From Halorhodospira halochloris (GTDB lineage: Bacteria; Pseudomonadota; Gammaproteobacteria; Nitrococcales; Halorhodospiraceae), in contig NZ_AP017372.2 in assembly GCF_002356555.2 (NCBI RefSeq), positions 1,488,001 to 1,552,000 on the forward strand: a DNA stretch of 64,000 nucleotides. Reading direction: 5' to 3'. The notes beneath the pieces are model-generated. The model did not search any database, was not told the DNA's origin, and was given only the letters and a program-made list of their open reading frames with translations. The translations under genes were made by a program, and so were the position numbers. Of this stretch, positions 6,521-28,992 are shown piece after piece. Every line of letters begins with the position of its first letter. The first letter of the stretch is position 1.

Positions 6521-6672
6521 GGGAACCTCTAAAAGCCTCCCCGGCGCCATTATCTGCCCCGGTGTGGAGGTCTTGGCGCCAGGGATGGCGCCATGAAGCC
6601 TCCAGGGATGGATTCACGGCGTCCTCCACACCGGGGCAGATAATGGCGCCGGGGAGGCTTTTAGAGGTTCCC
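6521..6672. repeat. Palindromic 152-bp element, copy 1
   Basis: The element is bounded by gggaacctct and agaggttccc. Roughly 53 bp at each end are near-perfect inverted repeats, including CTCCCCGGCGCCATTATCTG and its complement. The roughly 45-bp centre carries several ggcgcc palindromes. It encodes no convincing protein. Further full-length copies lie at 8336-8493 and 13826-13977, with degraded relatives at 7161-7312 and 10553-10619. All sit in gaps between genes, which suggests a non-autonomous mobile element or a structured intergenic repeat. Confidence 0.85.
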
Positions 6673-6707
6673 ATTAGCCTTGCCCTAGCACCGCTTAATG
6701 ATCGTGA

Positions 6708-7076
6708 TCAGACGTCTTCGCTCTTATCAGCGTGCTCTGTGCCCGGGGCGTGCTCGGGCGGGCAGTAGGTGGTGTATAGCTTCAGCATCCCTGAGCCGGT
6801 GTTGATGAAGTTATGATAGACGCCAGAGGGAACTATGCTGACATCCCCCTCTTGAACCTCGTAGGTCTCACTGCCAATCTCGGCCCTGCCACTGCCGGCT
6901 ACGAAGTAGAGCAGCTGATCGTGCCCCTCGTGTGTTTCGGCACCTATATCCTCCCCTTCGGGGATGGCCATCACCACCAGCTGAGTCTTCTCGCCGGTCC
7001 ACACTACCTTGCGGAATTTATCATTCTCCAGCGCCATTTGGGCGATGGGTAGAGTCAGTCGGGTCTCTTCGCTCAT
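6708..7076 (-). CDS. Small cupin-domain protein
   Basis: This 122-residue protein is a single cupin barrel. Motif 1 is seen as ETHEGHDQLLYFVAGSG near residues 46-62, supplying two His and a Glu-like ligand position. Motif 2 is PSGVYHNFIN near 83, supplying the last His. Such proteins bind a divalent metal and act as dioxygenases, isomerases or small-molecule binding proteins; the substrate cannot be inferred. The ATG at 7076 follows an AGGAAG-like site on the minus strand. It stands alone between two palindromic elements. Confidence 0.85.
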   Translation of the reverse strand: MSEETRLTLPIAQMALENDKFRKVVWTGEKTQLVVMAIPEGEDIGAETHEGHDQLLYFVAGSGRAEIGSETYEVQEGDVSIVPSGVYHNFINTGSGMLKLYTTYCPPEHAPGTEHADKSEDV

Positions 7077-7160
7077 TTTTCTTCCTTATGTTGCTTATTC
7101 TGGCCAAGCTAACGATAAACGTGTTTATATTCTGACATCATAAACAACCCAAGTACAGTG

Positions 7161-7312
7161 GGACGCCTCTTAAAACTCCTCCCGCTGAGCTGGAGCTGCT
7201 TAGGTGTGGAGGACACCGTGGATCCATCCCTGGAGGCCTAATGGCACCATACCTGGCGCCTATACCTCCACACAGATGCAGCCAGACCTGGGGGCGGGTT
7301 TGGAGGTCTCTA
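7161..7312. repeat. Palindromic element, degraded copy
   Basis: Same length and layout as the 6521 element: the core GTGGAGGACACCGTGGATCC, CATCCCTGGAGGCC and CCTGGCGCC are recognisable. The terminal arms have diverged (cctcttaaaactcctccc and ggtttggaggtct), so the long hairpin is lost. It lies immediately upstream of the YheT-like gene. Confidence 0.65.
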
Positions 7313-7336
7313 GTGACGCATAAGGTTTACAACAAT

Positions 7337-8320
7337 ATGACAAGAGGCAGTTTTTCCCCAGCCTGGTGGTTGCCAGGTTGCCACAGCCAAACCATGTTCC
7401 CTGCCGTATTTAGGCGCGCACCGCAGGTAAAGCTGATCCCAGAAAAGCTGGAATTGCCGGATGGAGATTTTCTCGACTTGATGTGGGGACCGCCCGGCAA
7501 GGGGCTAGCATTAATCGGCCATGGGCTAGGCGGCAACGAGCGCTCCGGCTACGTACGCGGGCTTATAGCTGCGTTGGCCGAGCGCGGTATCGGCAGTGTA
7601 GTGATGATAGCACGGGGAGCCGGCGACACGCCCAATCGCTCGCAGCGCTCATACCACGCTGCTGCTTGGGATGATCTTGACGCGGTAATAGACACCTTGC
7701 ACAGACGCTATCCGCAGCAGCCGCTGGCGGCCTGCGGCTTCTCGCTCAGTGGATCAATCCTGCTCAACTGGTTGGGCCAACGCCCCGACAAAAAGCTCAG
7801 CCAGGCAGTGGCAGTATCGGTGCCATTCGATCTCCAGATGTGCGCATACGCCCTCGAACAGGGCATTGGCGTTATATACCAGCAATATCTGTTGCGCAGG
7901 CTAAAGCCCCTAGCTGAGCGCAAGTTCAAGCATAGCCCTCAGGCCCCAGTAACTACCCAGCAAATTCGTAATATTCGGCGTCTGCGCGAGTTTGATGACC
8001 TAATCACAGCACCTATAAACGGTTTCGCCGACAGTACCGATTATTATCGCCGCGCCAGTTGCCGGCAACGGCTCAAGAGAATAGAACAGCCGACAGCGAT
8101 TATCCATGCGCTTGATGACCCATTCGTACCCGAAAAGGCAGTCCCCACAGAGGATGAGCTAGGCCCCGGTATCAGTCTGGAACTGACGCAAAAGGGCGGT
8201 CATGTAGGCTTCGTTAAAGGTGCCATGCCTGGTTACCATAGCTATTGGTTGGATCAGCGCATCGCGGACTGGATTGAGTACCGTGTGTTACAGTGCGTAT
8301 CCTCTAAAACCTCCCCTTAA
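7337..8320 (+). CDS. yheT: Alpha/beta hydrolase, YheT (UPF0017) family
   Basis: The start chosen is the ATG at 7337 (MTRGSFSPAWW). The longer frame from 7241 would translate a degraded palindromic repeat, and 327 residues matches the roughly 340-residue family. The N-terminal WWLPGCHSQTMFP motif is characteristic of YheT. The catalytic Ser lies in GFSLSGSI near residue 138, Asp in HALDDPFVP and His in GGHVGF, giving a full triad. The enzyme is a predicted carboxylesterase-like hydrolase of unknown substrate. The yheS homologue lies upstream on the same strand, separated by the inverted cupin gene. Confidence 0.87.
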   Translation: MTRGSFSPAWWLPGCHSQTMFPAVFRRAPQVKLIPEKLELPDGDFLDLMWGPPGKGLALIGHGLGGNERSGYVRGLIAALAERGIGSVVMIARGAGDTPNRSQRSYHAAAWDDLDAVIDTLHRRYPQQPLAACGFSLSGSILLNWLGQRPDKKLSQAVAVSVPFDLQMCAYALEQGIGVIYQQYLLRRLKPLAERKFKHSPQAPVTTQQIRNIRRLREFDDLITAPINGFADSTDYYRRASCRQRLKRIEQPTAIIHALDDPFVPEKAVPTEDELGPGISLELTQKGGHVGFVKGAMPGYHSYWLDQRIADWIEYRVLQCVSSKTSP

Positions 8321-14294: not shown

Positions 14295-14700
14295 ATCGGC
14301 GCCTGGAGCCGGCTAGCAGATCAACGTTTCGATCAACTGCGCCAAGAACGCGACACAGCCCACCAAGAGACCACTACCCTTCGCCAAGAAAGGATGCCGA
14401 AATCCGCACAATGGCGGCCGAGCATGAACAGACCCGCCTTGGCCTGGAGCAACGCCTTAGCGAGAGTCAGCAGGCCTTGGAGAACCTGCAAGCTCAGGTA
14501 GAGCGCGAGCGCAAATACTGGAAGGGACAAGAACTGCAGTACATAAAACGCTTCAACGAAATCAGCAACGAACGTGACAACTACCAGCAGCGCGCCGAGA
14601 AGCTCGAAGATCAGCTCAAGCAGGAAACGAAAATGCTGCAAAGAAAGCTAGACAGCGCCCATCAGGAGCGTAGCGTAGTAAACATCGCTCAGCGTGCCCG
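14295..14700 (+). pseudogene. Frameshifted coiled-coil protein fragment
   Basis: Two overlapping frames together encode one continuous coiled coil: SRLADQRFDQLRQERDTAHQ then TTTLRQER in one frame, and DAEIRTMAAEHEQTRLGLEQ and onward in the next. The frame change falls near 14390, so the gene is broken. The 5' end follows an in-frame stop at 14292. The 3' end runs into the IS1380-like left end near 14790. The heptad-rich, Glu/Gln/Arg-rich composition resembles KfrA or SMC-like plasmid and chromosome-segregation proteins, but the family is not certain. Confidence 0.5.
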
Positions 14701-14788
14701 CCAGAGCCGCATTGTGTCGTCGAATGAGCCCGTGACAAACCGTTCTCCGTCTGGACTAAACTCGACTGAGTTTACAAGGCCCAGCGGG

Positions 14789-15003
14789 ATGGCCCCAATA
14801 CCAGAACTGGGAGACTCCAGGCGCGTCTCGACTTGCGAAGACGTGTTGAACTCGGCTGTCATAACCGGTAGCTTTTACACCTATGGTACGATGTCTCTTT
14901 TAGTTACTTTATTGTTTAACGCGCTGATTATGAAGGACATAAGGCACTACGCCAACCTCTTCGGTCTTTTTTCTTGCATTAGCCTGGAGTCATTCCCTGC
15001 AAC
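14789..15003 (-). mobile_element. IS1380-family left-end remnant upstream of lipoprotein gene
   Basis: This stretch matches the leader found upstream of both propeller genes. Read on the minus strand it aligns with the left end of the intact IS1380 element at 27280-27500. It carries an eroded terminal repeat (cttgcattagcctgg for tgaattatccggg), the CTTCATAATCAG block and the first roughly 100 bases of the transposase (with GTCGAGAC). It abuts the lipoprotein gene and could supply an outward promoter, as ISEcp1-type ends do. Confidence 0.65.
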
Positions 15004-15057: not shown

Positions 15058-15825
15058 ATGAAACAAAAAACGACGATCTTAGTGGCAGCGTTGTGCATAA
15101 CTGGTTGCGCGTCTATGCAGGATGATGAGTTTTCTAGTGAGGAGGTCGGTGAAGCCGAACACCTAGCTTATAATGTCGTCCCTGAAGAAGAAGAAAAAAC
15201 AAAAGAGGTTGAAGATGTTGAAGTTTCTGTAAAAGCAGAGGGCGGACGCTTCGAGCCCAGTCAACGCTATAAGATAGAGGTAATTGAATATGATCAGCCA
15301 TTTTTGGACAGCATAGGAGCTTCTATGAATGGTGGATCTGAAGACTACTATAGAGCAGAGTATCGCGCCGTGCCTCTAAATGTGACCTACGGGTCTTCGC
15401 ATATTAGGGCAATATTTGAAATCAAAAACAACTCTGAAACAGTGATACGGCAAGACGACATTGGTTATGCCGTTTTTGTCGATGATGAACATATCGAATA
15501 TGGCGAAGAGTCCACGGAGGATCTGCAACCCGAGGGTGGAAAATATGGATTTCTAATTGAAACTACAATTGATGATTTTGAGGGTGCTGAAAAAATACGC
15601 GTTGTTTTCTATGACGTAGTCGTAGCAGTGGATGAAAGAGGGCAGCCAAAGCGCCTTCAAAATTTCGACGTTAACTTTGAAGTGAGATCCTGGCAAGTGA
15701 CCATGCAAGAAAATAACTTTTATGCAACTAAGACCGTTACCGATTCTGAGTTGCGTCGTTTAGATGGTACCGAGGTTAATGAGTCCGACGTCGAGGATAG
15801 ATTTTTTCCAGGAGCCCTTGATTAG
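15058..15825 (+). CDS. Acidic lipoprotein of unknown function
   Basis: This is a 255-residue protein with a clear type II signal: basic start MKQKTT, a hydrophobic stretch and lipobox ITGC at residues 17-20. The mature part begins with a strongly acidic, disordered segment (residues 25-60, many Glu) and continues as a beta-rich domain with no recognised family. GGATAAAAC before the ATG at 15058 gives a plausible ribosome site. It shares its upstream IS1380-like leader with the two propeller genes, so the three may be co-regulated or have moved together. Confidence 0.75.
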   Translation: MKQKTTILVAALCITGCASMQDDEFSSEEVGEAEHLAYNVVPEEEEKTKEVEDVEVSVKAEGGRFEPSQRYKIEVIEYDQPFLDSIGASMNGGSEDYYRAEYRAVPLNVTYGSSHIRAIFEIKNNSETVIRQDDIGYAVFVDDEHIEYGEESTEDLQPEGGKYGFLIETTIDDFEGAEKIRVVFYDVVVAVDERGQPKRLQNFDVNFEVRSWQVTMQENNFYATKTVTDSELRRLDGTEVNESDVEDRFFPGALD

Positions 15826-16166
15826 GATAGGTGCCAATTGCTGACCTTCTCGCAGATAAAGCCAATACCCAGAGGAGACGTACTTTTATTTGCCCGGATA
15901 TCGGCCCCTTTCTGGTCAGTGTTGGTGGCACTAGAGGCCTGTCAAGGAAAGGGCGATTATCTCAAGCATGGTTTGGTATTTTTTGCTTTTTGCCTGAATC
16001 GGTTGTGCCTCCGGCACCCTCTTCTCGAAAACTTCGGGGTGGCCGTGTAAAAGAGTTGCGGCCCGTGGAATTCAGCTGAACCCCCCGAAGCAATCCCAAA
16101 CATTTGAGTTTCCGCATCTAACATATAAGCATAATGAAACCCTTGAAGAGCATGTAAAACTGTTCT

Positions 16167-18299
16167 TCAGAAAGAGATTCTGGGAACTATTTTCAGTATT
16201 CCTGTTTCGGCATCGATGGCGCGCACGGTACCATCGGCGCCTGCGCTGTAGACGGTATCACCCTCCACCGCGACACCGAAGAACGAGCGGTCATGCCCAT
16301 CGAAGACCCATTTCTGTAAGCCGGTATAAACATCGATGGCGCGCACGGTGTCATCATCGCCGGCGCTGTAGACGGTACTGCCCTCCACCGCGACACTGTA
16401 AACATCATCGTCATGCCCATCGAAGACCCACTGCTCCTCGCCGGTCTCAGCATCGAGGGCGCGCACGGTTTCATCACGGACATCGCCAGCGCTATAGACG
16501 GTATCGCCTTCCACCGCGACGTCGTGGACCCACCGGTCATGCCCATCGAAAGCCCACTGCTCCTCGCCGGTCTCGGCATCGATGGCGCGGACGGTCTCAT
16601 CGGAGCTGGCGCTGTAGACGGTATCGCCCTCCACCGCGACGCCGCGGACCCTATCGGTATGCCCCTCAAAGACCCACGGCTCGCCATCGACCATGAAGGG
16701 TTCACCGGTTTCGGCATCGATGGCGCGGACGGTCTCATCGGAGCTGGCGCTGTAGACGGTATCGCCCTCCACCGCGACGCTCCTGACCGTGCTGGTATGC
16801 CCCTCAAAGACCCACGGCTCGCCATCGACCATGAAGGGTTCACCGGTTTCGGCATCGATGGCGCGCACGGTATCATCGCCGGAGGCGCTGTAGACGGTAT
16901 CGCCCTCTACCGCAACATCCCGGACACGGGCCGCCGTGCCCTCATGCCCCTCAAATACCCATTTCTGTAAGCCGGTATGAACATCGATGGCGCGCACGTT
17001 GTTATGCTGGCAGGCGCCGTAGACGGTATCGCCCTCCACCGCGACGTTGTAGAACCGGCCGGGCCCCTCGAAGACCCACTTCCAATCACCAGTTAAGGCC
17101 CAGATCCATCCCTCATCATCTCCCGCGGCGAAGAGAGCATCATCCGTCACAGCGATGTCAGCTATCCATGTTGCTCCTGACTCAGTATATTCTGCATGTT
17201 CCGCATAGCCCCATAAATACTCCCCGGTTTTAGCATCAATAGCTTGTATTTCTCCGTTACTTCCTCCTATATACGCGGTTCCATTATTTGTTTCGACCGC
17301 TCGAATTGATGCACCATACCCGGCATACTTCCATTTTTCCTCGGCTGTATTAGCATCAACGGCGCGGACGGTCTCATCGGCGCTGGCGCTGTAGACGGTA
17401 CCACCCTCCACAGAGACGCTATAAACATCATCGTCATGCCCCTCAAAGACCCACGGCTCGCCATCGACCATGAAGGGTTCACCGGTTTCGGCATCGATGG
17501 CGCGGATAGTGTTATCGGTACTCCCCACGTAGACGGTGTCCCCTTGTGCTGCAACGCTCCTGATGCGGCCGGTTTCGGGTTCGTAAACCCAGGCGTCATC
17601 ACCCGTTCTTACTGCCGTGCCCGAAGAAGCATCTATGGCACGGACCGTTTCTCGGCAGGCGCTATAAACGGTGTCATCGATAACAGCTATATCTCGCAAG
17701 ATACCATCGGTATGGCTTTCGTGTTTGGATCCGTCCCCTGATTTAATATCTATGGCATAGATGTTGTCATTTTTATCGATACTGTATACGGTGTCTTGCT
17801 TGACTGTTACTCCTGTTACCTCTGCGTCGTGTCCATCAAACACCCACCCTCTTTCACTGCCTGTAATGTCATTTGCATGGACATCCTGGTCACTGAAGCT
17901 ATACGCAACACCATCCTCTAGCACATCATCCTGAAAGTCATCGGGTATTCCTCCGAAAACCCAAGCTTCTTCTCCTGTTTCTGCATCGATCGCCCGTATA
18001 GTTTGATCATGACCCGCAGTAAATACAAGGTCACTTGTTGCTGCGACAGCTGCGATCTGGGTCCCATCCTCATGTCCCCGAAAAACCCACTTACCAGCTC
18101 CTGTTTTGGTATCGATTGCGCGAACGGTACCATCATCACCGGAAGTATAGACCCTATCACCCTTGACTGTAACACCATAAACAGTTGATTTATGTGCCCA
18201 TTCGGCACTCCATTTTGCGCTTGGCACTGCGCTAGCATAAAGGTGTGAGTTAAACGAGAGCATCAAAAAAGCAGCTAAACATATTGCCTTGTTTCTCAT
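16167..18299 (-). CDS. Secreted 16-blade WD40/PQQ-like beta-propeller protein A
   Basis: The start is set at the ATG at 18299 (MRNKAICLAAF), which follows a strong AGGGGGG site. The 53 codons ahead of it belong to an IS1380-like end. The 710-residue product has a signal peptide ending near ASAVPSAKW, then 16 repeats of about 40 residues. The repeat consensus is GHxxxVxxVAVEGDTVYSAS, then D.TVRAIDAETGE and a W-V/A-F pair. It blends WD40 (GH) and PQQ-type (AIDAETGE..W) features, without visible PQQ dehydrogenase residues. Blades 1-9 are diverse, whereas blades 10-16 are nearly identical to one another. The protein is probably a periplasmic or surface binding platform; the ligand is unknown. Confidence 0.85.
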   Translation of the reverse strand: MRNKAICLAAFLMLSFNSHLYASAVPSAKWSAEWAHKSTVYGVTVKGDRVYTSGDDGTVRAIDTKTGAGKWVFRGHEDGTQIAAVAATSDLVFTAGHDQTIRAIDAETGEEAWVFGGIPDDFQDDVLEDGVAYSFSDQDVHANDITGSERGWVFDGHDAEVTGVTVKQDTVYSIDKNDNIYAIDIKSGDGSKHESHTDGILRDIAVIDDTVYSACRETVRAIDASSGTAVRTGDDAWVYEPETGRIRSVAAQGDTVYVGSTDNTIRAIDAETGEPFMVDGEPWVFEGHDDDVYSVSVEGGTVYSASADETVRAVDANTAEEKWKYAGYGASIRAVETNNGTAYIGGSNGEIQAIDAKTGEYLWGYAEHAEYTESGATWIADIAVTDDALFAAGDDEGWIWALTGDWKWVFEGPGRFYNVAVEGDTVYGACQHNNVRAIDVHTGLQKWVFEGHEGTAARVRDVAVEGDTVYSASGDDTVRAIDAETGEPFMVDGEPWVFEGHTSTVRSVAVEGDTVYSASSDETVRAIDAETGEPFMVDGEPWVFEGHTDRVRGVAVEGDTVYSASSDETVRAIDAETGEEQWAFDGHDRWVHDVAVEGDTVYSAGDVRDETVRALDAETGEEQWVFDGHDDDVYSVAVEGSTVYSAGDDDTVRAIDVYTGLQKWVFDGHDRSFFGVAVEGDTVYSAGADGTVRAIDAETGILKIVPRISF

Positions 18300-18312
18300 A
18301 ACCCCCCCTGAA

Positions 18313-18513
18313 CCCGGATAATTCAAGAAAAAAAGACCGAAGAGGTTGGCGTAATGCCTTAAGTGCTTCATAATCAGCGCGTTAAACAATAAAGTAACTA
18401 AAAGAGACATCGTACCATAGGTGTAAAAGCTACCGGTTATGACAGCCGAGTTCAACACGTCTTCGCAAGTCGAGACGCGCCTGGAGTCTCCCAGTTCTGA
18501 TGTTGGGCCATCC
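18313..18513 (+). mobile_element. IS1380-family left-end remnant upstream of propeller A
   Basis: Begins with the terminal repeat CCCGGATAATTCA, identical to the intact element at 27280. It then aligns through GGTTGG, CTTCATAATCAG and GTCGAGACGCGCCTGGAG with the element's leader and the 5' part of its transposase. The frame is broken. The propeller gene reads away from the element, across the terminal repeat. Confidence 0.78.
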
Positions 18514-18708
18514 TCCAGTGGAGCTTTACGGCCAGGGCCCGGGCGCGGCGCATCGAAGAAATGGCGCTGGTCTTCCAGAAGGTCCGGGTGACGGCACTCG
18601 GGATCAGGCGCACTCCCTAATATTGTCCAGAGAAGATGAGGGGTGTCGGAGGGGCAAGACGTGGACCTTCTTTTTGATGCAGGACACTAGAGCACTGTCA
18701 GGGTAAGA
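18514..18708. other. Spacer with IS481-like scrap
   Basis: Bases 18567-18640 (GTCTTCCAGAAGGTCCG and following) match part of the IS481-family remnant at 31370-31435. The motif caggacactag at 18679 recurs at 29750, possibly an IS end. No gene is present. Confidence 0.55.
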
Positions 18709-18921
18709 GCGGTTATCTCACGCATGGCTTAGTATTTTTGCTTTTTGCCTGAATCGGTTGTGCCTCCGGCACCCTCTTCTCGAAAACTTCGGGGTGGCCG
18801 TGTAAAAGAGTTGCGGCCCGTGGAATTCAGCTGAACCCCCCGAAGCAATCCCAAACATTTGAGTTTCCGCATCTAACATATAAGCATAATGAAACCCTTG
18901 AAGAGCATGTAAAACTGTTCT

Positions 18922-21048
18922 TCAGAACGAGATTCTGGGAACTATTTTCAGTATTCCTGTTTCGGCATCGATGGCGCGCACGGTACCATCGGCGCTTGCG
19001 CTGTAGACGGTATCACCCTCCACCGCGACACTGGAAACATCATCGTCATGCCCCTCGAATACCCATCTCTGTAAACCGGTATAAACATCGATGGCGCGCA
19101 CGGTGTCATCATCGCCGGCGCTATAGACGATATCGCCCTCCACCACGACGTGGCGCATGCCCCGGCTGTCATGCCCATCGAAAACCCACTCCCGGCTGTC
19201 ATGCCCATCGAAAACCCTCTCCTGGTCGCCGGTCTCAGCATCGATGGCGCGCACGGTGCCATCCCAGCTGGCGCTATAGACAGTATCGCCCTCCACCGCG
19301 ACGTCGTAGACCCGGCTGTCATGCCCCTCGAAGACCCACTGCTCCTCGCCGGTCTCAGCATCGATGGCGCGCACATTTTTATCTGGGCCTAGAGATGGCG
19401 CCACGCTGGCGCTGTAGACGGTATCGCCCTCCACCGCGACACCGTAGACCCGGCGCTCATGCCCATCGAAAACCCACTGCTCCTCGCCGGTCTCAGCATC
19501 GATGGCGCGCACGGTGTCATCATCGCCGCCACTGTAGACGGTGCTCCCCTCAACCGCGACGCCGCGGACACTATCGGTATGCCCCTCGAAGACCCACTGC
19601 TCCTCGCCGGTCTCAGCATCGATGGCGCGCACGGTGTCATCATCGCCGCCACTGTAGACGGTATTCCCCTCAACCGCGACAGCCCAGACGCCGCTGCGCG
19701 AGCGGTCATGCCCCTCAAAGACCCATTTCTGTAAGCCGGTATAAACATCGATGGCGCGGAGAGTGTTATCGGCGCTGGCGCTGTAGACGGTATCGCCCTC
19801 CACCGCGACGCCGCGGACCCTATCGGTATGCCCCTCGAAGACCCACTCCCAATCACCAGTTAAGGCCCAGATCCATCCGTCGTCATCTCCCGCGGCGAAG
19901 AGAGCATCATCCGTCACAGCGATGTCAGTTATCCATGTTACTCCTGACTCAGTATATTCTGCATGTTCCGCGTAGCCCCATAAATACTCCCCGGTTTTAG
20001 CATCAATAGCTTGTATTTCTCCGTTACTTCCTCCTATATACGCGGTTCCATTGTTTGTTTCGACCGCCCGAATTGATGCACCATACCCGGCATATTTCCA
20101 TTTTTCCTCGGCTGTATTAGCATCAACGGCACGGACGGTCTCATCGGAGCTGGCGCTGTAGACGGTATCACCCTCCACTGTGATGTCCCGGACAGCCCCG
20201 AAATGCTCCTCGAAGACCCACTGCTCGGCTCCTGTCTCGGCATCGATGGCGCGGAGAGTGTTATCGGTACTCCCCACGTAGACGGTGTCCCCCTGTGCTG
20301 CAACGCTCCTGATGCGGCCGGTTTCGGGTTCGTAAACCCATGCGTCATCACCCGTTCTTACTGCCGTGCCCGAAGAAGCATCTATGGCACGGACCGTTTC
20401 TCGGCAGGCGCTATAAACGGTGTCATCGATAACAGCTATATCTCGCAAGATACCATCGGTATGGCTTTCGTGTTTGGATCCGTCCCCTGATTTAATATCT
20501 ATGGCATAGATGTTGTCATTTTTATCGATACTGTATACGGTGTCTTGCTTGACTGTTACTCCTGTTACCTCTGCGTCGTGTCCATCAAACACCCACCCTC
20601 TTTCACTGCCTGTAATGTCATTTGCATGGACATCCTGGTCACTGAAGCTATACGCAACACCATCCTCTAGCACATCATCCTGAAAGTCATCGGGTATTCC
20701 TCCGAAAACCCAAGCTTCTTCTCCTGTTTCTGCATCGATCACCCGTATAGTCTGATCATGACCCGCAGTAAATACAAGGTCACTTGTTGCTGCGACAGCT
20801 GCGATCTGGGTCCCATCCTCATGTCCCCGAAAAACCCACTTTTCAGCTCCTGTTTTGGTATCGATTGCGCGAACGGTACCATCATCACCGGAAGTATAGA
20901 CCCTATCACCCTTGACTGTAACACTATAAACAGTTGATTTATGTGCCCATTCGGCACTCCATTTTGCGCTTGGTACTGCGCTAGCATAAAGGTGTGAGTT
21001 AAACGAGAGCATCAAAAAAGCAGCTAAACAAATTGCCTTGTTTCTCAT
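18922..21048 (-). CDS. Secreted 16-blade WD40/PQQ-like beta-propeller protein B
   Basis: This is the paralogue of protein A, 708 residues from the ATG at 21048 with the same signal peptide and ribosome site. Blades 1-5 and 8-9 are almost identical to A, and blades 6-7 differ in the loop. Blades 10-16 contain the same kinds of loops (DDDVYSV, TDRVRGV, DRS) in a different order. Blade 15 holds an in-frame duplication of about 11 residues (DGHDSR twice), and blade 13 carries an APSLGP insertion. The total remains 16 blades, suggesting selection on blade number while individual blades are exchanged. Confidence 0.85.
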   Translation of the reverse strand: MRNKAICLAAFLMLSFNSHLYASAVPSAKWSAEWAHKSTVYSVTVKGDRVYTSGDDGTVRAIDTKTGAEKWVFRGHEDGTQIAAVAATSDLVFTAGHDQTIRVIDAETGEEAWVFGGIPDDFQDDVLEDGVAYSFSDQDVHANDITGSERGWVFDGHDAEVTGVTVKQDTVYSIDKNDNIYAIDIKSGDGSKHESHTDGILRDIAVIDDTVYSACRETVRAIDASSGTAVRTGDDAWVYEPETGRIRSVAAQGDTVYVGSTDNTLRAIDAETGAEQWVFEEHFGAVRDITVEGDTVYSASSDETVRAVDANTAEEKWKYAGYGASIRAVETNNGTAYIGGSNGEIQAIDAKTGEYLWGYAEHAEYTESGVTWITDIAVTDDALFAAGDDDGWIWALTGDWEWVFEGHTDRVRGVAVEGDTVYSASADNTLRAIDVYTGLQKWVFEGHDRSRSGVWAVAVEGNTVYSGGDDDTVRAIDAETGEEQWVFEGHTDSVRGVAVEGSTVYSGGDDDTVRAIDAETGEEQWVFDGHERRVYGVAVEGDTVYSASVAPSLGPDKNVRAIDAETGEEQWVFEGHDSRVYDVAVEGDTVYSASWDGTVRAIDAETGDQERVFDGHDSREWVFDGHDSRGMRHVVVEGDIVYSAGDDDTVRAIDVYTGLQRWVFEGHDDDVSSVAVEGDTVYSASADGTVRAIDAETGILKIVPRISF

Positions 21049-21061
21049 AACCCCCCCTGAA

Positions 21062-21262
21062 CCCGGATAATTCAAGAAAAAAAGACCGAAGAGGTTGGCG
21101 TAGTGCCTTAAGTGCTTCATAATCAGCGCGTTAAACAATAAAGTAACTAAAAGAGACATCGTACCATAGGTGTAAAAGCTACCGGTTATGACAGCCGAGT
21201 TCAACACGTCTTCGCAAGTCGAGACGCGCCTGGAGTCTCCCAGTTCTGATGTTGGGCCATCC
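21062..21262 (+). mobile_element. IS1380-family left-end remnant upstream of propeller B
   Basis: Same structure as the remnant at 18313: terminal repeat CCCGGATAATTCA followed by the degenerate transposase start, ending at the junction ggccatcc. It reads away from propeller B. Confidence 0.78.
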
Positions 21263-21494
21263 CGCTGCCCCTCTTCGCCCGCGCGAAATCTCCATAGCCC
21301 ACGGTTCGCGCTGCAATCCCAAAGAGTTCCTTGGTGAGCCGGGCCTCCAGGGTCAGCAGATCGGAATTGGTGTTGACCGTGTCCACCGCGTTGCGGTTTG
21401 CATCTATGAGATGGGTCAGGTTCTCACCCGCGACCTCGAACCCGGAATCCAGCAGGGCACGGTTCTCCAGCCAGTTCGTCCGGATTCGCTCCAA
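21249..21494 (-). pseudogene. Gene fragment, family not recognised
   Basis: An open frame begins MERIRTNWLENRALLDSGFE and continues LTHLIDANRNAVDTVNTNSD then LTKELFGIAARTVGYGDFAR. The composition looks like real helical protein. It is cut by the duplication junction, after which it translates repeat DNA. I do not recognise the family; the original gene would have extended further. Confidence 0.45.
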
Positions 21495-21524
21495 GCGAGC
21501 CTTCTGGAAACGCCGAGCGCAGGC

Positions 21525-22277
21525 TCATGCATAATGGCACGGCTTGCTCTCAATGTTTAGCCAGAACGGATTAGCTCTGTATTTGTAGTAGAGTCGACTG
21601 CGGTGGGGGTGTCGGACATAATAGATCCCCTTAGATGATGCCAACGCCCCAGTGTCACGCAATACCTGCAAAGCCGCGCCTTCGAGGCCATGCAATTGCT
21701 TCTCACTGACTCTATACAAGCCGCTAAACCGCCGTGGCTGATTACCGATGTCAAGTTCCAAAGGCCATGGCTCCAAAATTCCAGCCTCGTCCAAACTACG
21801 ACAAGCCCTATCAGTTAGCGCCCGGTTGCGCGCTACCTGGCCAAGAAAATCAATAACCTTCTGCAACTGCGGTGTAGGCTTATCATCTGCCGTAAACAGC
21901 GGCTGACCGATATAGGCGTCCGCCTGTAATGCCGCGGATGCCTCATCCACGGCCACTACGTGCTTATCTTGCGCAGTTTCTACCAAGTAGAACGGATAGG
22001 CTCCCAGGTAGGCAGGAACATAACCCCCCCGCCAACGTCCGCGCGAATCGACAAAGGCTGAACGGCCAGATTCCACCCCTAGCAAAGCCTGTAAAATCGG
22101 GCCTGATTTCTGATAAGTGATCACCAGAGGAAAAGCACCTACCGCACGGGGCAATTCCCGACTGGTAACAGGAACGAGGTGATTCTCTGCGGCGTGGAAA
22201 TAGCCTCGGGCCCGCTGCCAATAAGTATCGCGGAGCCTGTTTGATGATAACGGCTTTAATGATGATTTTTGAGTCAT
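21525..22277 (-). CDS. SapC family protein
   Basis: This is a 250-residue protein of the SapC family: an N-terminal VPVTSRELPRAVGAFPLVI segment, WRGGYVPAYLGAYPF in the middle and ALTDRACRSLDEAGILEPW near residue 170. The length matches the family. SapC-like proteins are found in many proteobacteria, often near surface or secretion genes, but their role is not established here. It lies 130 bp upstream (in transcription terms, downstream) of the DUF6447 gene on the same strand. Confidence 0.8.
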   Translation of the reverse strand: MTQKSSLKPLSSNRLRDTYWQRARGYFHAAENHLVPVTSRELPRAVGAFPLVITYQKSGPILQALLGVESGRSAFVDSRGRWRGGYVPAYLGAYPFYLVETAQDKHVVAVDEASAALQADAYIGQPLFTADDKPTPQLQKVIDFLGQVARNRALTDRACRSLDEAGILEPWPLELDIGNQPRRFSGLYRVSEKQLHGLEGAALQVLRDTGALASSKGIYYVRHPHRSRLYYKYRANPFWLNIESKPCHYA

Positions 22278-23018: not shown

Positions 23019-23477
23019 TCACTCCTCCGACTCCTTCGACCGGGAGCCTTTGCTCGAGTACTTCAACTTCCTAATTTCTTCCTGGGTCAGCGCGGGAGGG
23101 TCCCCGAGCCTGATATTTCTATTCAGTTCGACCATCAGAGCCACGATATCCTCTTTATCTGCCTGACTCCTACCTGACTTAATCGCCGTCATCAGGCTCT
23201 CCATTGGTAGCGAGAGAACCAACCCGCCCTCATCGAGCTGGACCTGGACACCAAGGCGGCGGAAAACCGCCAGCAATGCTTCCAGTGTGCTTGTCCTAAC
23301 CTTGTCGACATCTCTAAGCGTCTCGACCCTATTGATGGTTGGTCGCGAAACCTGCGAAGCCTTGGCTAGGTCCGATTGGCTCATATTGAAAAGCGCGCGG
23401 AGAGTCCGAAGCACCACCGAAACCTGTTCAGCGTAACTTGGCAGATGCTCTTGACCTTTTCTGTCCTTGTGATTCAT
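23019..23477 (-). CDS. XRE-type helix-turn-helix regulator
   Basis: From the ATG at 23477 the protein is about 152 residues. The HTH lies at residues 25-65 (LRTLRALFNMSQSDLAKASQ then VSRPTINRVE), followed by a region resembling the MqsA/HipB-type continuation (LLAVFRRLGVQVQLDEG). The C-terminal 50 residues are charged and variable. It may control the neighbouring module or be an orphan antitoxin; no HipA-like toxin is adjacent. Confidence 0.75.
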   Translation of the reverse strand: MNHKDRKGQEHLPSYAEQVSVVLRTLRALFNMSQSDLAKASQVSRPTINRVETLRDVDKVRTSTLEALLAVFRRLGVQVQLDEGGLVLSLPMESLMTAIKSGRSQADKEDIVALMVELNRNIRLGDPPALTQEEIRKLKYSSKGSRSKESEE

Positions 23478-23746
23478 GATGAATATCATTACTTGCTTAT
23501 GAATTTTGATGAACCATTTTAGCACCTCATGAAACACATTATGCCACCAATCGGGCTCGTTACAAACATGCTCACGGGGCTTACCGCGATTGAGGAAGCG
23601 TCGTCATCACCATGAGTTGACCCAACAGCAGACATGAAGAGCTTGCCACCACTCAAAATGATGCGTGAACGGAGCCGCAAAGATACGCCACACGCAAAGC
23701 GCGAGATGAAGTGCTCAAGGCTCTGTGCAAACAGAACGAGCATCGT

Positions 23747-23965
23747 ATGGAGTTTGTGCCGGAGGATGAAATGCTATTAACTGACAGAGAAATCAGACAG
23801 CTCACCGGGCGGAAGCGGTTCGCCGCACAGTGCCGCGCCCTTGGCAGGATGGGACTGCCACATGATAGAGACCCGGATGGCCGTCCGCTAGTATTGCGGG
23901 AGGTAGTTATGGAAAGATTAGGTGGAGAGAAGCCATCGCAAGAGTGGGAGCCTGGAAGATGCTGA
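23747..23965 (+). CDS. DUF4224 protein, integrase-associated
   Basis: The frame contains MLLTDREIRQLTGRKRFAAQ then CRALGRMGLPHDRDPDGRPLVL, the typical DUF4224 core found directly upstream of phage and island integrases. About 70 residues is normal. The ATG at 23747 gives the best fit, with a later option at 23771. It overlaps the frame of the integrase remnant that follows, the standard arrangement. Confidence 0.65.
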   Translation: MEFVPEDEMLLTDREIRQLTGRKRFAAQCRALGRMGLPHDRDPDGRPLVLREVVMERLGGEKPSQEWEPGRC

Positions 23966-24215
23966 GCTTGAAGCCCTGCGCAGGGTGGCTAATGTAAGAA
24001 TCAAGGCAATCATTGATATCGCTTACCTGACTGCTCTACGCAAAGGCGATCTGCTTAACCTGCGCTTATCGGATCTGTACGACGATTGGATTCAATGCCG
24101 AGTCGGCAAGACAGGTCAGGAGGTCAGGATTGGTTGGAGTGACGCGTTGCGAGAAGCTGTTAGCCGAGCTCGTAAATTGGCGCGCCGGGGAGGATTCGAA
24201 CCCCCAACCTTCTGA
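23922..24215 (+). pseudogene. Tyrosine integrase fragment
   Basis: LRRVANVRIKAIIDIAYLTA then LRKGDLLNLRLSDLYDD is the part of a tyrosine recombinase holding the first catalytic Arg (TALRKGDLL). The N-terminal arm-binding part and the HxxR...Y end are missing. The last residues (GGFEPPTF) translate a tRNA 3' end, so the gene has been fused to an attachment site. Confidence 0.75.
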
Positions 24216-24226
24216 TCCGTAGTCAG
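24178..24226 (-). tRNA. tRNA-Arg(ACG) 3' part, attachment-site remnant
   Basis: The minus strand reads as anticodon stem-loop CTGA-CTACGGA-TCAG (anticodon ACG), variable loop, T-arm with GGTTCGAATCC and the acceptor end GCGCGCCA. The 5' half with the D-arm is absent, so this is not a working tRNA. Such 3' ends are the usual integration targets of islands carrying tyrosine integrases, consistent with the integrase remnant it abuts. Confidence 0.8.
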
Positions 24227-24229
24227 AGC

Positions 24230-24813
24230 CTTAAACAGCCCTTAAACTTCTGATAAAACACAGGTTATGCCTTTCTGATATCTACAAAAGAAACACTCAA
24301 AACCCTACGTAAGCCTTTGATAAATAGGAGCCTGGTTGCATTTTTGTAGACAAGTTATCACGCTTCATGCTCGTATAGCTTATCCATGATCAAGTTTGCG
24401 GCCTGTGCTAAGGAGCCAAAGCAATGTCTTAAGCGCACAGCACGATCAGTAGTCTAGGAAGGTTTCACTTTCTTTGCGGTTTTGTTTATTAGGGCCACAG
24501 TAGCCGGAGCTATATATCTCCAATCCGGGCTCTGAGCGTCGTGTGCCACCTCTTCTGCGCCAGGCTCCCCTATTTGCCAGAGAGTTACCGCACCCCAGCA
24601 CGTGTTGACCAGCGACCACCTTGGCCGGATAATTCAACTACTCAATCAATGAGAGTGTCCAGAATCTGCTCAGCAGGACGGGATGAGACAGGCTAATTCA
24701 CCCCACCGCCACCTCTAATTGGGCTCTGAGGTGGTAACTTGCTTGAAGAGACGACGGAATGAAGGCTGTTCCCGGATACATTCTCGTCCCGCAAGTACGG
24801 TAGTATAGTAGGC
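24230..24813. other. Gene-poor stretch of mobile debris
   Basis: A minus-strand frame ending at 24358 (RLRHCFGSLAQAANLIMDKL) is open for about 30 codons without a convincing start. A GCCGGATAATTCA motif at 24623-24635 resembles the IS1380 terminal repeat. No complete gene is evident. Confidence 0.4.
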
Positions 24814-25386
24814 ATGACGATCCCGAACTGGAACCATCAGGGGGTCCTCCCCCCTTACGTAGGGAGTCAGACTGGTTCCGATGGCCGCTCTCCCTATCCG
24901 ACGACACTTGTCGAAGTGTTAGAGCACTTTGGCACTTCCCCTGAGCGATGCAAAGTCCTTCGTGGGTTTCTCGACTATCGGCAGGAGCTGTACAGCATCG
25001 GGGTTAAGCAGGGATTCCAGTGGGTGAACGGAAGCTTCGCGGAGAATGTGGAGATTCTCGAGGAGCGCCCCCCAGAGGACGTGGACGTAGTGACTTTTTT
25101 TGCGGTGCCTTCGGGAGAGAGCCAGCAAACGCTCTTGGAAAAAAACGCGGACGTATTCCGTCCAGCCTCAGTAAAACGGCGGCATGGTGTCGATGGTTAT
25201 CCAGTTCCTTGGGATGGCGGCGACTGGCAGAGGCTAGTGAAGCATGCGAGCTATTGGTACAGCCTTTGGTCTCATCGGCGTAACCACCTCTGGAAAGGAT
25301 TCGTTCAGATCCCGTTGGAGCCTTCTGAAGAAGTCCCACGAGCGGTTTTGGATAACATCACGTCGGCTATCGGGGAGAATAAATAA
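24814..25386 (+). CDS. DUF6932-like, nucleotidyltransferase-type protein, intact copy
   Basis: This 190-residue protein opens with MTIPNWNHQGVLPPYVG. It contains WVNGSFAENVEILEERPPED then VDVVTFF near residues 66-92. A GS motif followed by a spaced D-x-D is the pattern of the polymerase-beta/minimal nucleotidyltransferase fold. I associate the opening and this block with the DUF6932 family, from memory. The stop overlaps the next gene's ATG (ATAATG junction), so the two are translationally coupled. A toxin or defence role is plausible by analogy with MNT-type enzymes but is not shown. The second copy at 55254 is frameshifted. Confidence 0.7.
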   Translation: MTIPNWNHQGVLPPYVGSQTGSDGRSPYPTTLVEVLEHFGTSPERCKVLRGFLDYRQELYSIGVKQGFQWVNGSFAENVEILEERPPEDVDVVTFFAVPSGESQQTLLEKNADVFRPASVKRRHGVDGYPVPWDGGDWQRLVKHASYWYSLWSHRRNHLWKGFVQIPLEPSEEVPRAVLDNITSAIGENK

Positions 25387-26321
25387 TGACGCGCCCTTCT
25401 GAACATGAGCAACTCTCTGCCGAGAAGGCGCAGCTCGAAAGTTTCCTCGCTGATGTTCCGCAGGAGAGTGCAATCGAGCGGATAGCACTAGAGGATCGCT
25501 TGGAAAGTGTTCGCGTTCGGCTCGAGGAGCTCGCCACCAATAGTAGCGAGGCAGCCCGGGTGAGTCTGACCTTCTCAGGCAAGCCCGTGCTGAACTCCGA
25601 GGGTATTTTGGCCGATTTCAGTGCAGCGGCTTTGCAGAAATTCGAACAGATGGTGGCAACGGTGGGTGCTTATCTACGCACAGGCGAACTTAGGTCCTCG
25701 GGGCCATTGCCAGCACGGCAAGAACACCGCCTTATGATCACAGGGACCACCGTGGGATCTTTTGGCTTTCATCTAGAAGAGAGGAGCGAACCTGAACAGC
25801 CGGAGATGGGGTTAGAAGATAGCTCGGTCCGAAAGGCTTTGGACCGAGTAACTCGTGTGATAGAAGGAGCTCTAGAGTCCGAAGAGGCACTAGCTGAGGA
25901 GGTCTCCGATCTTGATTCTCGCTCAGTGCGAAGTCTGCATGAATTTATGAACACAGTCGCAAGTCGTGATGCCTGGTTCCGGCTGGAGGCCGTCGGTCGT
26001 CGCGTGGAATTCCCCGACATGGAGCATCTAAGCCGTACTGTGGAGTGGCTTCAAGAGGACAATATCCATGAAGAAGAAGCGGAGCTGCGGGGCACTCTCG
26101 AAGGTTATTTGCCACACACGCGCACCTTCGAGCTTGCAGAAGACGAACTAGGCCTCGTGAAGGGTAAAATAGCTCCAGCGATTGACGATCCTCATGATTT
26201 ACAGCCCTACCTGAAGAAGCGGGTTACTTTGAGCGTGCGGAAAACAGCTCTTGGAGGCGGTAAGCCCCGATTTGCTCTTGTATCCCCTCCCAGTTCGCCG
26301 GACGAGGATGCCGACGTGTAA
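25386..26321 (+). CDS. Partner of the DUF6932-like gene, unknown family
   Basis: This 311-residue acidic soluble protein has an N-terminal coiled coil (residues 5-55). A possible beta-rich centre follows (RLMITGTTVGSFGFHLEE), then a helical middle and a C-terminal beta segment (LKKRVTLSVRKTALGG). I do not recognise the family. It directly overlaps the nucleotidyltransferase-like gene, and both are preserved in the second repeat copy at 55825 (two amino-acid changes, K to Q and S to G). That supports a two-gene unit. Confidence 0.75.
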   Translation: MTRPSEHEQLSAEKAQLESFLADVPQESAIERIALEDRLESVRVRLEELATNSSEAARVSLTFSGKPVLNSEGILADFSAAALQKFEQMVATVGAYLRTGELRSSGPLPARQEHRLMITGTTVGSFGFHLEERSEPEQPEMGLEDSSVRKALDRVTRVIEGALESEEALAEEVSDLDSRSVRSLHEFMNTVASRDAWFRLEAVGRRVEFPDMEHLSRTVEWLQEDNIHEEEAELRGTLEGYLPHTRTFELAEDELGLVKGKIAPAIDDPHDLQPYLKKRVTLSVRKTALGGGKPRFALVSPPSSPDEDADV

Positions 26322-26501
26322 ACTAGCCGTCGTAGCCTTCTCTAGCTGAGCCAACGCTGCTCGGCATCTTCCACGCGGAGGCGGGTTTCCAGCGTGTATA
26401 GCTGGATGTCGAGCATGTCGAGCGGCTTGGCTTCCTCGCAGGGCGTACTTGGCGGCTTTGATCAGCGGATTTTTGGGTTCAAGTCCGAGTTGTTGCTATG
26501 G

Positions 26502-26915
26502 CTATTCATTGCGTTGGCTTCCTTCTCCCCACTTCATTGCACCCAGCCAGAGGAGCTTGCCTAATGCGGGTGCTGCTGTGGAACAAATGAAAACATACGC
26601 CGCAGGACTCCACCCAAACCAGTAGCAGATAAAGCCGGTCACGATGCTTACCACGGATAGCACGAACGCAGAGCTAAGAATAACTGGGACAAGAGAACTC
26701 CTGGGCGGACCTATTAAGAAGGCTGTCATAGCGACGACGAATAAAGAAAGGAGCAATGAGCGTACGAGAAGATCTATCAAGCTTTCGCCTTCAAACCACG
26801 GCAAGCCAATCGTATCAACTATAACTAGATTGCTAGACATAAGCGCAACGGCAAATACCCCGAGACTGCCCCCAAAACGCTCAGATAGATCACGAAGCGT
26901 ATCTGGTGATATCAA
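26502..26915 (-). CDS. Small membrane protein, unknown function
   Basis: This 137-residue protein has about four hydrophobic segments (residues 17-37, 50-72, 77-98, 101-125) and a charged C-terminal tail. No family is recognised. It is convergent with the two-gene unit and lies upstream of the TrlF gene's 3' end. Small membrane proteins in defence clusters are often effectors, but that is only a guess from position. An identical copy lies at 56941. Confidence 0.6.
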   Translation of the reverse strand: MISPDTLRDLSERFGGSLGVFAVALMSSNLVIVDTIGLPWFEGESLIDLLVRSLLLSLFVVAMTAFLIGPPRSSLVPVILSSAFVLSVVSIVTGFICYWFGWSPAAYVFICSTAAPALGKLLWLGAMKWGEGSQRNE

Positions 26916-27028
26916 ACCCGACCTCCACTGTCATACCAGTTTATTCAAAAGACGCGATCTTTGCGCGTATTTTACTGATGCCGTATAACGTCATCCATAA
27001 TCCCGTATTAGGACGCGATAGCATCATT

Positions 27029-27279
27029 TTACCTATGAAGCCCGTACTTCGATCCACGAACGTCAAACGCCGGCCAGGTACCTTCGAGGATATCAACAGA
27101 TGAAGCCGCTATACTCACGCTCTCTATTGATCCCGACTTATAAACTACCGTGTTGTTTTGGTCTGTCACGATTTCTGCTACTATTATCTGATTCGCGTCA
27201 CAAACAATCGCTAAATTCGGATTGTGGGTTACTATTATAACTTGCCGATGCTCTGCGGCAGATTTGATAGCACTCACAA
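27029..27279 (-). pseudogene. TrlF-type ATPase, C-terminal fragment
   Basis: The last 83 codons of the gene seen whole at 57468-60560, including VIIVTHNPNLAIVCDANQI with the switch histidine. It is cut at 27280 by the terminal repeat of the IS1380 element, so the ATPase core and the start are gone. Confidence 0.9.
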
Positions 27280-28992
27280 CCCGGATAATTCACGACAGGT
27301 AGGAAATAAAGGTTGGTGCGGCGCTTTATTTCCTTCATAATCAGAGCTGTACGAACACGGAAAACAAAAGGAAACGCCGCACCATGGGTGAAACGATACC
27401 TCTCTTCGAACCATCTTTCAATAAGTCTCTGCGGGTCGAGACTCGACCGGAACGCCTTAGCTCTGAGGCGGGAGTAATGCTCCAGCGCGAGGCTTTTGAG
27501 CGTACTGGAATCATCTCCTGGATGAGCGCACGACTAGAGGATTCCCGTGATCAAAGTCGTGTAAAGCATTCACTTAGCGAGCTGCTGCGCGATAGCTTAA
27601 CCATGATGGGCCAAGGCTGGGATGACCAGCGTGATGCCAGCACCTTGGGCAACGATCCTATGCTCGCAGCATGCGGCAGCGATGGTCGTGGCGAATCCGT
27701 CATTGATCGGGGCCTTGCTTCGCAGCCAACTATCTCTCGGCTGTTAGACATGCTGGCGCACGAACATAACCTAGATGTGCTCAATAAGGCGCTTCTCAAG
27801 CTAGTCGAGCAGCGGATACGCTCCCGTAACAAAGGGCGCCGCGCGCGAACCATGACGATTGATGTCGATGGTGTCCCATTGCAGGCTCATGGTCAGCAGC
27901 CGGGCAGCGCTTTCAGCGGGCACACCGGACAACGTCAACATTACCCGCTGTTCGCTCTGTGTGCAGAGACCGGAGATATGATTGGAGTGCTGTTGCGCCC
28001 AGGTAATGCAGGCCCGGCGAGCGAGGCGGCGGCTTTGGTCCCGCGGCTAGTCGAGTACTTGCGCACTCATGTGGCTGAGCAAGTTCGGGTGCGACTGGAT
28101 GCGGGGTTTGCCGACGCTAACACCCTCGCGGCTTTGGATGCGCACAAGATTGAGTTTATCGCCCGATTGCCTAGGAACCAGGCCCTTGAGCGCCACTTCG
28201 AACCACACCGCTACCGGTGTGGCCGCCCTTCAAAAAGAGAGCGTGAGTGGACTAGGGAGATCAGCTATCAAGCAGGCACCTGGGATCATCCCCGGCGTGT
28301 AGTCATGGTTATTCGAGAACGCCCTGGGGAACTATTCCGCGATGCTTTCTATCTGGTCACCAACGTTTGCGGCAGTCAGCGCTTTGTACGCAGCCACTAT
28401 CAGCGGCGCGGCAAAGCAGAGGCACATTTTGGCGAGTTTAAAGATGTGGTTGGCGAGTCGCTTCCTTGCACCTGCCGGGGCAAGGCGACAGAACAACAGG
28501 TGTTAGCCCGCAGCCAGGCGCTTCTAGGGCTTAGAGCATTGGCTTACCAGCTGCTTCACATTCTACGCGAGAGCATGGAGCGTGCTACAGGTGATGGCTG
28601 GACCTTACGCCGACTGCGAGAACAAGTGCTCAAAAGCGCGGTTCGGGTGCTGCGTCATGCTCGCAAGTTGCAAGTCATTTTAGAGCGCCGCTGTGCTAAG
28701 CACTGGCGCGCTTTGCTGCGACGTCTGCCCAAAGAGTACCCAGCTCCCGGATAGATTTGATCCTTGAGCTTAAAATCAACTAGGCTCAAGCCGCTGGAAG
28801 CAACCCGGCGGGGGGTCGCTGTGTCTATAAAGCGCATTTTCGGCTCTTAGTAACCACTAGAGAGGGTCAAATCACGAGCAGTATAGCCACTTTACAGCCA
28901 AATATTGCTCGGGTTGCGGCTATTTTCTGTTCAGTGTTGATATATACCTACTCTTGTAGGGGGTAAACTCGGCTTCTCATGAATAACGCGGG
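27280..28992 (+). mobile_element. IS1380-family insertion sequence, intact
   Basis: The 1713-bp element has a left terminus CCCGGATAATTCACGAC and a right terminus whose complement reads CCCGCGTTATTCATGAG, about 12 of 17 positions matching. It encodes one transposase. No target duplication is visible (cacaa on the left, ttttat on the right), as expected if flanking DNA was lost by recombination or deletion after insertion. Confidence 0.85.
27384..28754 (+). CDS. IS1380-family transposase
   Basis: This 456-residue DDE transposase appears intact. Catalytic-region landmarks are TMTIDVDGVPLQAHGQQPGS with the first Asp (about 155), VRVRLDAGFADANTLAAL with the second (about 233), and the YQRRGKAEAHFGEFKD block with the Glu (about 350). 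The last block (Y-x-R-R-G-x-x-E) is typical of IS4/IS1380 enzymes. Fragments of the same or related genes lie at 13284, 14051, 14789, 18313 and 21062, showing long activity of this family here. Confidence 0.93.
   Translation: MGETIPLFEPSFNKSLRVETRPERLSSEAGVMLQREAFERTGIISWMSARLEDSRDQSRVKHSLSELLRDSLTMMGQGWDDQRDASTLGNDPMLAACGSDGRGESVIDRGLASQPTISRLLDMLAHEHNLDVLNKALLKLVEQRIRSRNKGRRARTMTIDVDGVPLQAHGQQPGSAFSGHTGQRQHYPLFALCAETGDMIGVLLRPGNAGPASEAAALVPRLVEYLRTHVAEQVRVRLDAGFADANTLAALDAHKIEFIARLPRNQALERHFEPHRYRCGRPSKREREWTREISYQAGTWDHPRRVVMVIRERPGELFRDAFYLVTNVCGSQRFVRSHYQRRGKAEAHFGEFKDVVGESLPCTCRGKATEQQVLARSQALLGLRALAYQLLHILRESMERATGDGWTLRRLREQVLKSAVRVLRHARKLQVILERRCAKHWRALLRRLPKEYPAPG

Follow-up and report, generated by a model that had tools for sequence, protein, structure and literature searches.

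Tandem genes for predicted sixteen-blade propeller proteins in Halorhodospira halochloris, with evidence of recombination among a subset of blades

The salt-loving, photosynthetic bacterium Halorhodospira halochloris carries two adjacent genes, here termed A and B, each encoding sixteen propeller blades, whose divergence is localised between near-identical flanks. With moderate confidence we interpret the pair as a recent tandem duplication of a probably exported two-propeller binding protein, in which blades 7 and 10-16 have recombined. The pair offers a natural experiment, comprising one duplication in which the flanks and half of the protein provide an internal clock and mainly the recombining blades have diverged. 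That divergence falls at the sites which determine specificity in the repeats of fungal allorecognition proteins and, if strains confirm the variation, the same route of diversification would operate in an exported bacterial protein lacking an NLR signalling module. The data comprise a single genome and this one pair of genes, and "the window" denotes the entire 64,000-nucleotide stretch analysed (contig positions 1,488,001-1,552,000), to which coordinates refer unless otherwise stated.

Results

Organization of the duplicated locus

Genes A (16,167-18,299; 710 residues from ATG) and B (18,922-21,048; 708 residues), identified from their reading frames, translations and Pfam matches, are both complete as placed by a prior sequence-only reading and, like all features described below, lie on the reverse strand. 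The 5' leader of A (18,300-18,513) matches that of B (21,049-21,262) at 213 of 214 positions (99.5%), and the 3' flank of A (15,990-16,166) is identical to that of B (18,745-18,921) at 177 of 177 (100%). Outside the variable blades the duplicated units share approximately 97-100% identity, and on pairwise comparison A and B are a recent tandem duplication. A consensus scan returned 11 promoter-like sites versus 6.2 (sd 2.5) in shuffled sequences, and 4 terminator-like sites versus 5.9; promoter-like sites in the A and B leaders occur only on the strand opposite the genes, so that a role for the leader as the A/B promoter gains no support.

Alignment places sixteen blades in each product, filling residues 25-700 of A and 25-698 of B, and bears out the count proposed earlier for both paralogues. 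We distinguish "fixed" blades (1-6, 8 and 9; A/B DNA identity 96-100%) from "active" blades (7 and 10-16; 78-88% at the same position), a division derived from the same data as the tests applied to it. Blade limits in B were set by blade alignment and identity to A, with a structure match for the C-terminal series. Fixed blades 1-6 (A, 17,481-18,227; B, 20,230-20,976) are 98.4% identical when compared together with the signal peptide, and fixed blades 8-9 (A, 17,079-17,342; B, 19,846-20,109) are 96.6% identical. Between them, active blade 7 (A, 17,343-17,480; B, 20,110-20,229) shows only 82.5% identity with an 18-nt gap, and in A has a 69-71-nt block in common with blades 12 and 13. The suggestion that blades 1-9 are almost the same thus holds for 1-6, 8 and 9; blade 7, diverged between near-identical stretches, is instead a member of the shuffled set. 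Active blades 10-16 (A, 16,200-17,078; B, 18,955-19,845) form a mosaic with 84.7% identity and 118 gap columns across blades 10-15, and 92.4% identity in blade 16. Blade 15 of B exceeds the usual 40 residues by 11 and contains a tandem duplication (19,161-19,222) that had been read as 11 residues; its repeat period is 30 nt (2.1 copies, 96% by TRF), corresponding to ten. Between A and B, pS and dN/dS are 0.055 and 0.19 for fixed blades, and 0.284 and 0.47 for active blades compared at the same position.

Repeats of 120-138 nt and near-identical units assemble poorly, and misjoining of A and B repeats might mimic such a pattern; since both frames are open, end in the same way and encode sixteen blades each, we regard an assembly artefact as highly improbable.

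Predicted fold and export

Both products exceed the Pfam cut-offs for PQQ_2 (PF13360; A 197 bits, B 190 bits; cut-off 27.6) and WD40 (PF00400; A 110 bits, B 132.5 bits; gathering score 27), consistent with a PQQ/WD40 hybrid. In the D-H-S/T-W tetrad of WD40 repeats, D is present in all but one of the 16 active blades, H occupies its position in each of the 15 that have a residue there, and the W-D of the WD40 motif reads by eye as A-I-D in most blades, a PQQ-like feature. The proteins thus resemble BamB and PQQ-like propellers in passing the PQQ_2 threshold, but differ in falling below the cut-offs of those families: the BamB equivalog model TIGR03300 (143 and 155 bits; cut-off 285.2) and that of PQQ alcohol dehydrogenase, TIGR03075 (103 and 114 bits; cut-off 480).

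Rather than the single sixteen-blade ring envisaged at first, both structure models show two consecutive propellers, the second of which holds blades 10-16. The predicted division falls at approximately 36-358 and 375-700 in A and 28-401 and 402-704 in B (model residue numbers being one above numbering from ATG), and the two models place blade 9 in different propellers (8+8 versus 9+7). Both derive from two-sequence alignments, with pLDDT 72.0 and 74.4 and pTM 0.52 and 0.50, blade 3 being unconfident. Residues ~402-704 of the B model, a seven-bladed propeller, match the seven-bladed WRAP-T and PkwA over 270-271 aligned residues (Z 41.5-42.6; rmsd 1.1-1.2). A whole-chain Foldseek search returned mostly eukaryotic tandem-WD40 chains at rmsd 11 to 22, along with Tako8 and Apaf-1; among solved chains, Tako8 (E 2.6e-39) and PkwA (E 6.3e-35) are closest in sequence.

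Residues 1-24 of A (18,228-18,299) have by eye the features of a Sec signal peptide, with a basic start, a hydrophobic core and ASA before residue 25, and the same residues begin B (20,977-21,048); both proteins are probably exported, to the periplasm or the surface. No NTPase (NACHT) module appeared among the 25 Pfam families listed, of 28 matching each protein; those 25 comprise propeller, WD40 and PQQ families and a small number of weak, unrelated ones. The extent of the blades leaves no room for such a module. Together with the signal-peptide-like start, its absence leaves membership of the HET/HNWD-type NLRs unsupported; of the likeness drawn earlier to the WD40 repeats of those proteins, what stands is that the repeats recombine and vary at the sites where HNWD repeats vary. 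PADLOC reported only HEAT-ARM_XIII (A, 1e-4; B, 3.9e-8), matches that we take as repeat cross-matches.

Recombination among active blades

Recombination among blades is well supported by several comparisons of their coding sequences. In the PHI test of site incompatibility all four window sizes gave p=0.0005, and identity runs exceeded the Bonferroni limit in 10 of 120 blade pairs, two measures that can be overstated when conserved columns alternate with variable ones. At 131 of the 166 same-position differences between A and B, both variants are present in other active blades, and segments are common to different positions and to both genes. A 69-72-nt block carrying a six-codon insertion occurs as identical runs in three places in A, in blades 7 (17,436-17,506), 12 (16,794-16,865) and 13 (16,656-16,729), and in none in B, where its 26-nt core has no copy. 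The shared segments indicate that exchange probably also took place between the two genes; no donor array was seen in the own-genome protein search.

Active blades of A and B intermix, such that A as a single clade is rejected (AU p=0.000125), and gene-specific consensus differences occur at none of 120 positions. Mean identity is nonetheless higher between blades at the same position (81.9%) than between blades at different ones (76.6%; label permutation P=0.003), so the order is not fully scrambled. The exchange between repeats first proposed for blades 10-16 also includes blade 7 and partly retains positional order. These three results also argue against the possibility that the C-terminal propellers of A and B were each re-amplified independently from one blade, the process described for Nostoc WRAP propellers (PMC9218822): although this process is known in bacterial propellers and would yield high blade identity, we reject it, on the consensus count and clade test, as extremely improbable.

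The divergent region is nearly one sharp-edged block, as would be expected if homologous recombination had replaced the C-terminal region of one copy with the diverged allele of another strain. This we consider unlikely overall, given the isolated patch at blade 7, the block present three times within A and the part-blade mosaics that span positions; these features require exchange within the gene, although it need not account for the whole divergence.

Variation at predicted top-face positions

Published top-face hotspots of WD40 repeats, R1-2, R1 and D-1 (PMC3419727), correspond to columns 22, 31 and 51 of our blade alignment. By our own matching of the motifs, columns 22, 31, 51 and 53 represent the Podospora HNWD codons under selection, 7, 9, 25 and 27 (PMC1805685). 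Among the 16 active blades, columns 22, 31, 51 and 53 rank 2, 5, 1 and 4 of 40 in entropy, the ranks of the three hotspot columns having P=0.0004. None of the eight active blades has the same hotspot triplet in A and B, whereas seven of the eight fixed blades do (two of those seven without the third column).

Positive selection on the active blades is only suggestive from these sequences, because synonymous diversity is also high at the same places. Hotspot codons show pS 0.53 versus pN 0.65, and pS reaches 0.586 in loop columns versus 0.321 elsewhere, so that loops may be old or unconstrained instead of selected; the ratio of hotspot pN to global pS is 1.77 (bootstrap 1.52-2.13), but approximately 1.2 over local pS. 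A FEL-like site test, whose script assumes a tree although the blades recombine, detected excess non-synonymous change (p<0.05) at columns 20, 22 and 44 only (3 of 40) and purifying selection at 9 of 40, with overall omega 0.65. Of the four HNWD-matching columns, only column 22 reaches p<0.05.

These values lend themselves to neutral concerted evolution, in which repeats recombine as repeats, the scaffold is kept by purifying selection, loops drift without any selection for diversity, and A and B remain functionally alike. The omega, the predominance of purifying over diversifying columns and the raised loop pS would all suit that account; the hotspot ratio over global pS and the contrast in triplets between active and fixed blades fit it less well, and we hold it to be a possible, if somewhat doubtful, explanation.

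Discussion

Under the recombination-based interpretation that we favour, tandem duplication of a putative binding-protein gene generated A and B, and segments of blades 7 and 10-16 were swapped by recombination within A, and probably also between the genes, retaining the blade scaffold while varying loop residues. Gene conversion-like exchange may hold the count at sixteen, because rings must close. The top face of the C-terminal propeller might provide a ligand-binding surface, in which case the two copies would by now differ in their binding partners; the fixed blades may carry a common role in folding, docking or scaffolding. A more specific proposal, that an extracytoplasmic recognition protein diversifies in the manner of fungal HNWD, pairing a constant propeller with one of recombining blades whose changed top-face residues provide a repertoire against phage, neighbours or substrates, seems to us improbable.

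Comparison with known systems

In common with A and B, the HNWD proteins of Podospora anserina (het-d/het-e/het-r) have repeats of high identity that evolve in concert, both inside a gene and from one gene to another (found here in one genome), and that vary, by our own mapping, at the same blade positions (PMC1805685, PMC2873952). Unlike these STAND proteins of variable repeat number, A and B have no NTPase, are probably exported, both have sixteen blades and shuffle only part of them. Highly repetitive prokaryotic WD40 proteins with high internal identity and diverse interaction-hotspot sites are already published (Hu et al. 2017, PMC5587647), and A and B would represent a probably exported, two-paralogue variant. 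They differ from that described set in that half of their blades are non-repetitive, that tandem paralogues show exchange directly, and that mean identity among the eight active blades is 69% and 68% in the two genes, just below the 0.7 line, as computed from our own alignment rather than by the method of Hu et al. WRAP and VCBS chitinase propellers likewise have near-identical blades, with paralogues that are distinguished by their repeats alone, for example two from Mastigocoleus that have 6 and 9 blades (Pereira and Lupas 2022, PMC9218822); A and B, unlike those examples, keep blade number and exchange content, with independent amplification rejected.

Integron cassettes were dismissed as the duplicated units: the single cassette array described for the H. 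halochloris genome (1,184,958-1,199,464; PMC7923331) lies outside the window.

Relatives in other genomes

Besides A and B, the own-genome protein search returned a third relative (genome positions 333,667-334,830) and a weak match at genome position 1,323,183, with seven matches in all at E<=0.001. No relative was found in viral contigs, a search of genome contigs gave three distant loci, and 241 plasmid records matched, all at <60% identity. A 356-residue WD40 protein (L049) and a 1206-residue protein that by eye combines a P-loop-like start with WD40 repeats (L051) were set aside, their architecture being unlike that of A and B. Of 95 genomes (source included), 62 gave a match at E<=0.001, for the most part weak; class-wide, a query of blades 1-9 retrieved 6 of 369 genomes at E<=1e-12, namely the source genome and five others with 25-33% identity. 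Matches occur in seven of the eight other genomes of the genus. Six are weak (E between 1.1e-8 and 8.5e-4), and the remaining one, at E 1.2e-30, is a propeller protein of G006 (L048) that is shorter and lipoprotein-like.

Tandem paralogues with two classes of blade

Genes A (16167-18299, minus strand) and B (18922-21048, minus strand), tandem paralogues of PQQ/WD40-hybrid blades, lie head to tail in a single 2,834,560-base contig, of which the window covers 1,488,001-1,552,000. The pair is a recent duplication. DNA alignment of A with B showed identity at 213 of 214 positions in the leaders, 177 of 177 in the 3' flanks, 806 of 819 across the signal peptide and blades 1-6, and 255 of 264 in blades 8-9; the corresponding values were 99/120 plus an 18-nt gap in blade 7, 598/706 with 118 gap columns in blades 10-15, and 109/118 in blade 16. 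For each of eight "fixed" blades (1-6, 8, 9), the best DNA match is the equivalent blade of the other gene (96-100%), and none exceeds 68% identity with any non-equivalent blade. Identity between "active" blades (7, 10-16) of equal position is 78-88%, often lower than with a blade at a different position: A13 is nearer to A12 (93%) and B10 (91%), A15 to B12 (85%), and A10 to B14 (83%). A16 and B16 are mutual best partners (88%), and a residual positional signal persists among active blades (81.9% at the same position vs 76.6% at different positions, P=0.003).

Synonymous divergence between A and B is 0.055 in fixed blades (pS; dN/dS 0.19) and 0.284 in active blades at the same position (dN/dS 0.47). 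A fivefold difference in synonymous change within one gene is unlikely to stem from point mutations accumulated after a single duplication.

Recombination among active blades

With 54 informative sites, the PHI test gave a significant p=0.0005 at all four window sizes. Within the aligned core, active blades of equal position differ between A and B at 166 sites; both variants recur in other active blades for 131 of these, one variant for 32 and neither for 3. Identical runs reached p<=0.01 in 24 of 120 blade pairs, 10 of them past Bonferroni correction. A7, A12 and A13 share an identical 69-72 nt block with a six-codon insertion, the core of which has no copy in B, and none of 120 consensus positions is gene-specific. 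Grouping of the A blades as one clade was rejected (AU p=0.000125), in a tree with 9 of 13 inner branches weak.

Variable columns and selection

The most variable columns of the 40-column active-blade alignment are 51, 22, 32, 53 and 31. Columns 22, 31 and 51 are the R1-2, R1 and D-1 residues, widely used by WD40 proteins in top-face binding (PMC3419727); a rank sum this low would arise by chance with probability 0.0004. Our motif-based mapping places the four positively selected codons of the Podospora HNWD repeats (PMC1805685) at columns 22, 31, 51 and 53. Hotspot triplets differ between A and B in all eight active blades; among the eight fixed blades, two of which lack the third column, only blade 9 differs, at R1. 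Hotspot pN (0.651) is 1.77 times pS across all columns (0.365; bootstrap 1.52-2.13 for the ratio) and only about 1.2 times local hotspot pS (0.530). In a FEL-like test on a tree, columns 20, 22 and 44 showed a non-synonymous excess and 9 of the 40 columns purifying selection (both p<0.05). We read the scaffold as strongly constrained, and the loops as relaxed to weakly diversifying.

Predicted structure and protein class

AlphaFold models built from two-sequence alignments render A and B each as two propellers, with blade 3 unconfident in both. The B model matches 7-bladed WRAP-T and PkwA at about 402-704 (Z 41.5-42.6, rmsd 1.1-1.2, 270-271 residues) and 8-bladed Tako8 at 29-401 (316 residues, rmsd 2.0); the A model matches Tako8 at 375-700 (307-308 residues, rmsd 1.6-1.7) and a 7-bladed chain at about 36-359 (264 residues, rmsd 1.6). 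With these matches, the modelled arrangement places the shuffled blades 10-16 together in the second propeller. Ring closure would be a natural reason for the constant blade number (16 in A, 16 in B).

Neither the Pfam matches listed nor the blade layout revealed an NTPase module in A or B, and both score under the BamB and PQQ-dehydrogenase cut-offs. By eye, their N-termini resemble Sec signal peptides. With pI 4.16 and 4.20, both proteins in mature form are acidic, as expected in halophiles. A constant core with variable hotspots is already known and so not a new pattern, since Hu et al. (PMC5587647) report highly repetitive prokaryotic WD40 proteins conserved save at some sites such as hotspots. 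No published account of the A/B locus was among the matches listed in our literature search.

Leader copies, neighbourhood and relatives

Copies of one leader, some 200 bp long, stand ahead of three genes: A (18300-18513, minus), B (21049-21262, minus) and, in opposite orientation with 96% identity (14782-14987, plus), an unrelated putative lipoprotein gene (15058-15825) for which family searches gave no match. Next to this third copy lies a remnant of another propeller gene, an ordinary-type WD40 fragment of 28 residues (14692-14775, minus; PF00400, E 6.9e-8). The leader resembles the start region of a DDE transposase gene (27384-28754), at 27278-27400 (69% over about 124 nt), a likeness suggesting that an insertion sequence may have moved the A and B units. 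A promoter scan gave no support for the leader as promoter of A and B. Directly upstream of B lies a type I-F Cas1 (Cas1f) remnant (21261-21503, minus; E 5.6e-14) without a Pfam match, and also upstream a SapC-family gene (21525-22277).

Elsewhere in the window, a 4.25-kb direct duplication (23019-27270 and 53459-57709; 4246/4251 bases identical) contains one gene each for an HTH and a DUF6932 protein. At the second copy stands a complete AAA gene (57468-60560; PADLOC mad3, E 1.7e-20), of which the first copy shows just the end, adjoining a DDE transposase gene.

A third relative in this genome (locus L046, 3662-5998; 778 residues), with hydrophobic N-terminal stretches, has three near-identical SYADYLENCTTCE repeats and seven A/B-type blades (mean identity 54%). 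In another genome of the genus, a 442-residue propeller protein with a lipoprotein-like start (L048, 4711-6039) is flanked by near-identical transposase-like genes at 2683-3549 and, split over two frames, at 6502-7370 (by eye), an arrangement resembling a composite transposon. A genome of the same order encodes a 568-residue, lipoprotein-like protein (L050, 4022-5728; by eye) of nearly identical PQQ-like blades, a further repetitive propeller that is probably exported.
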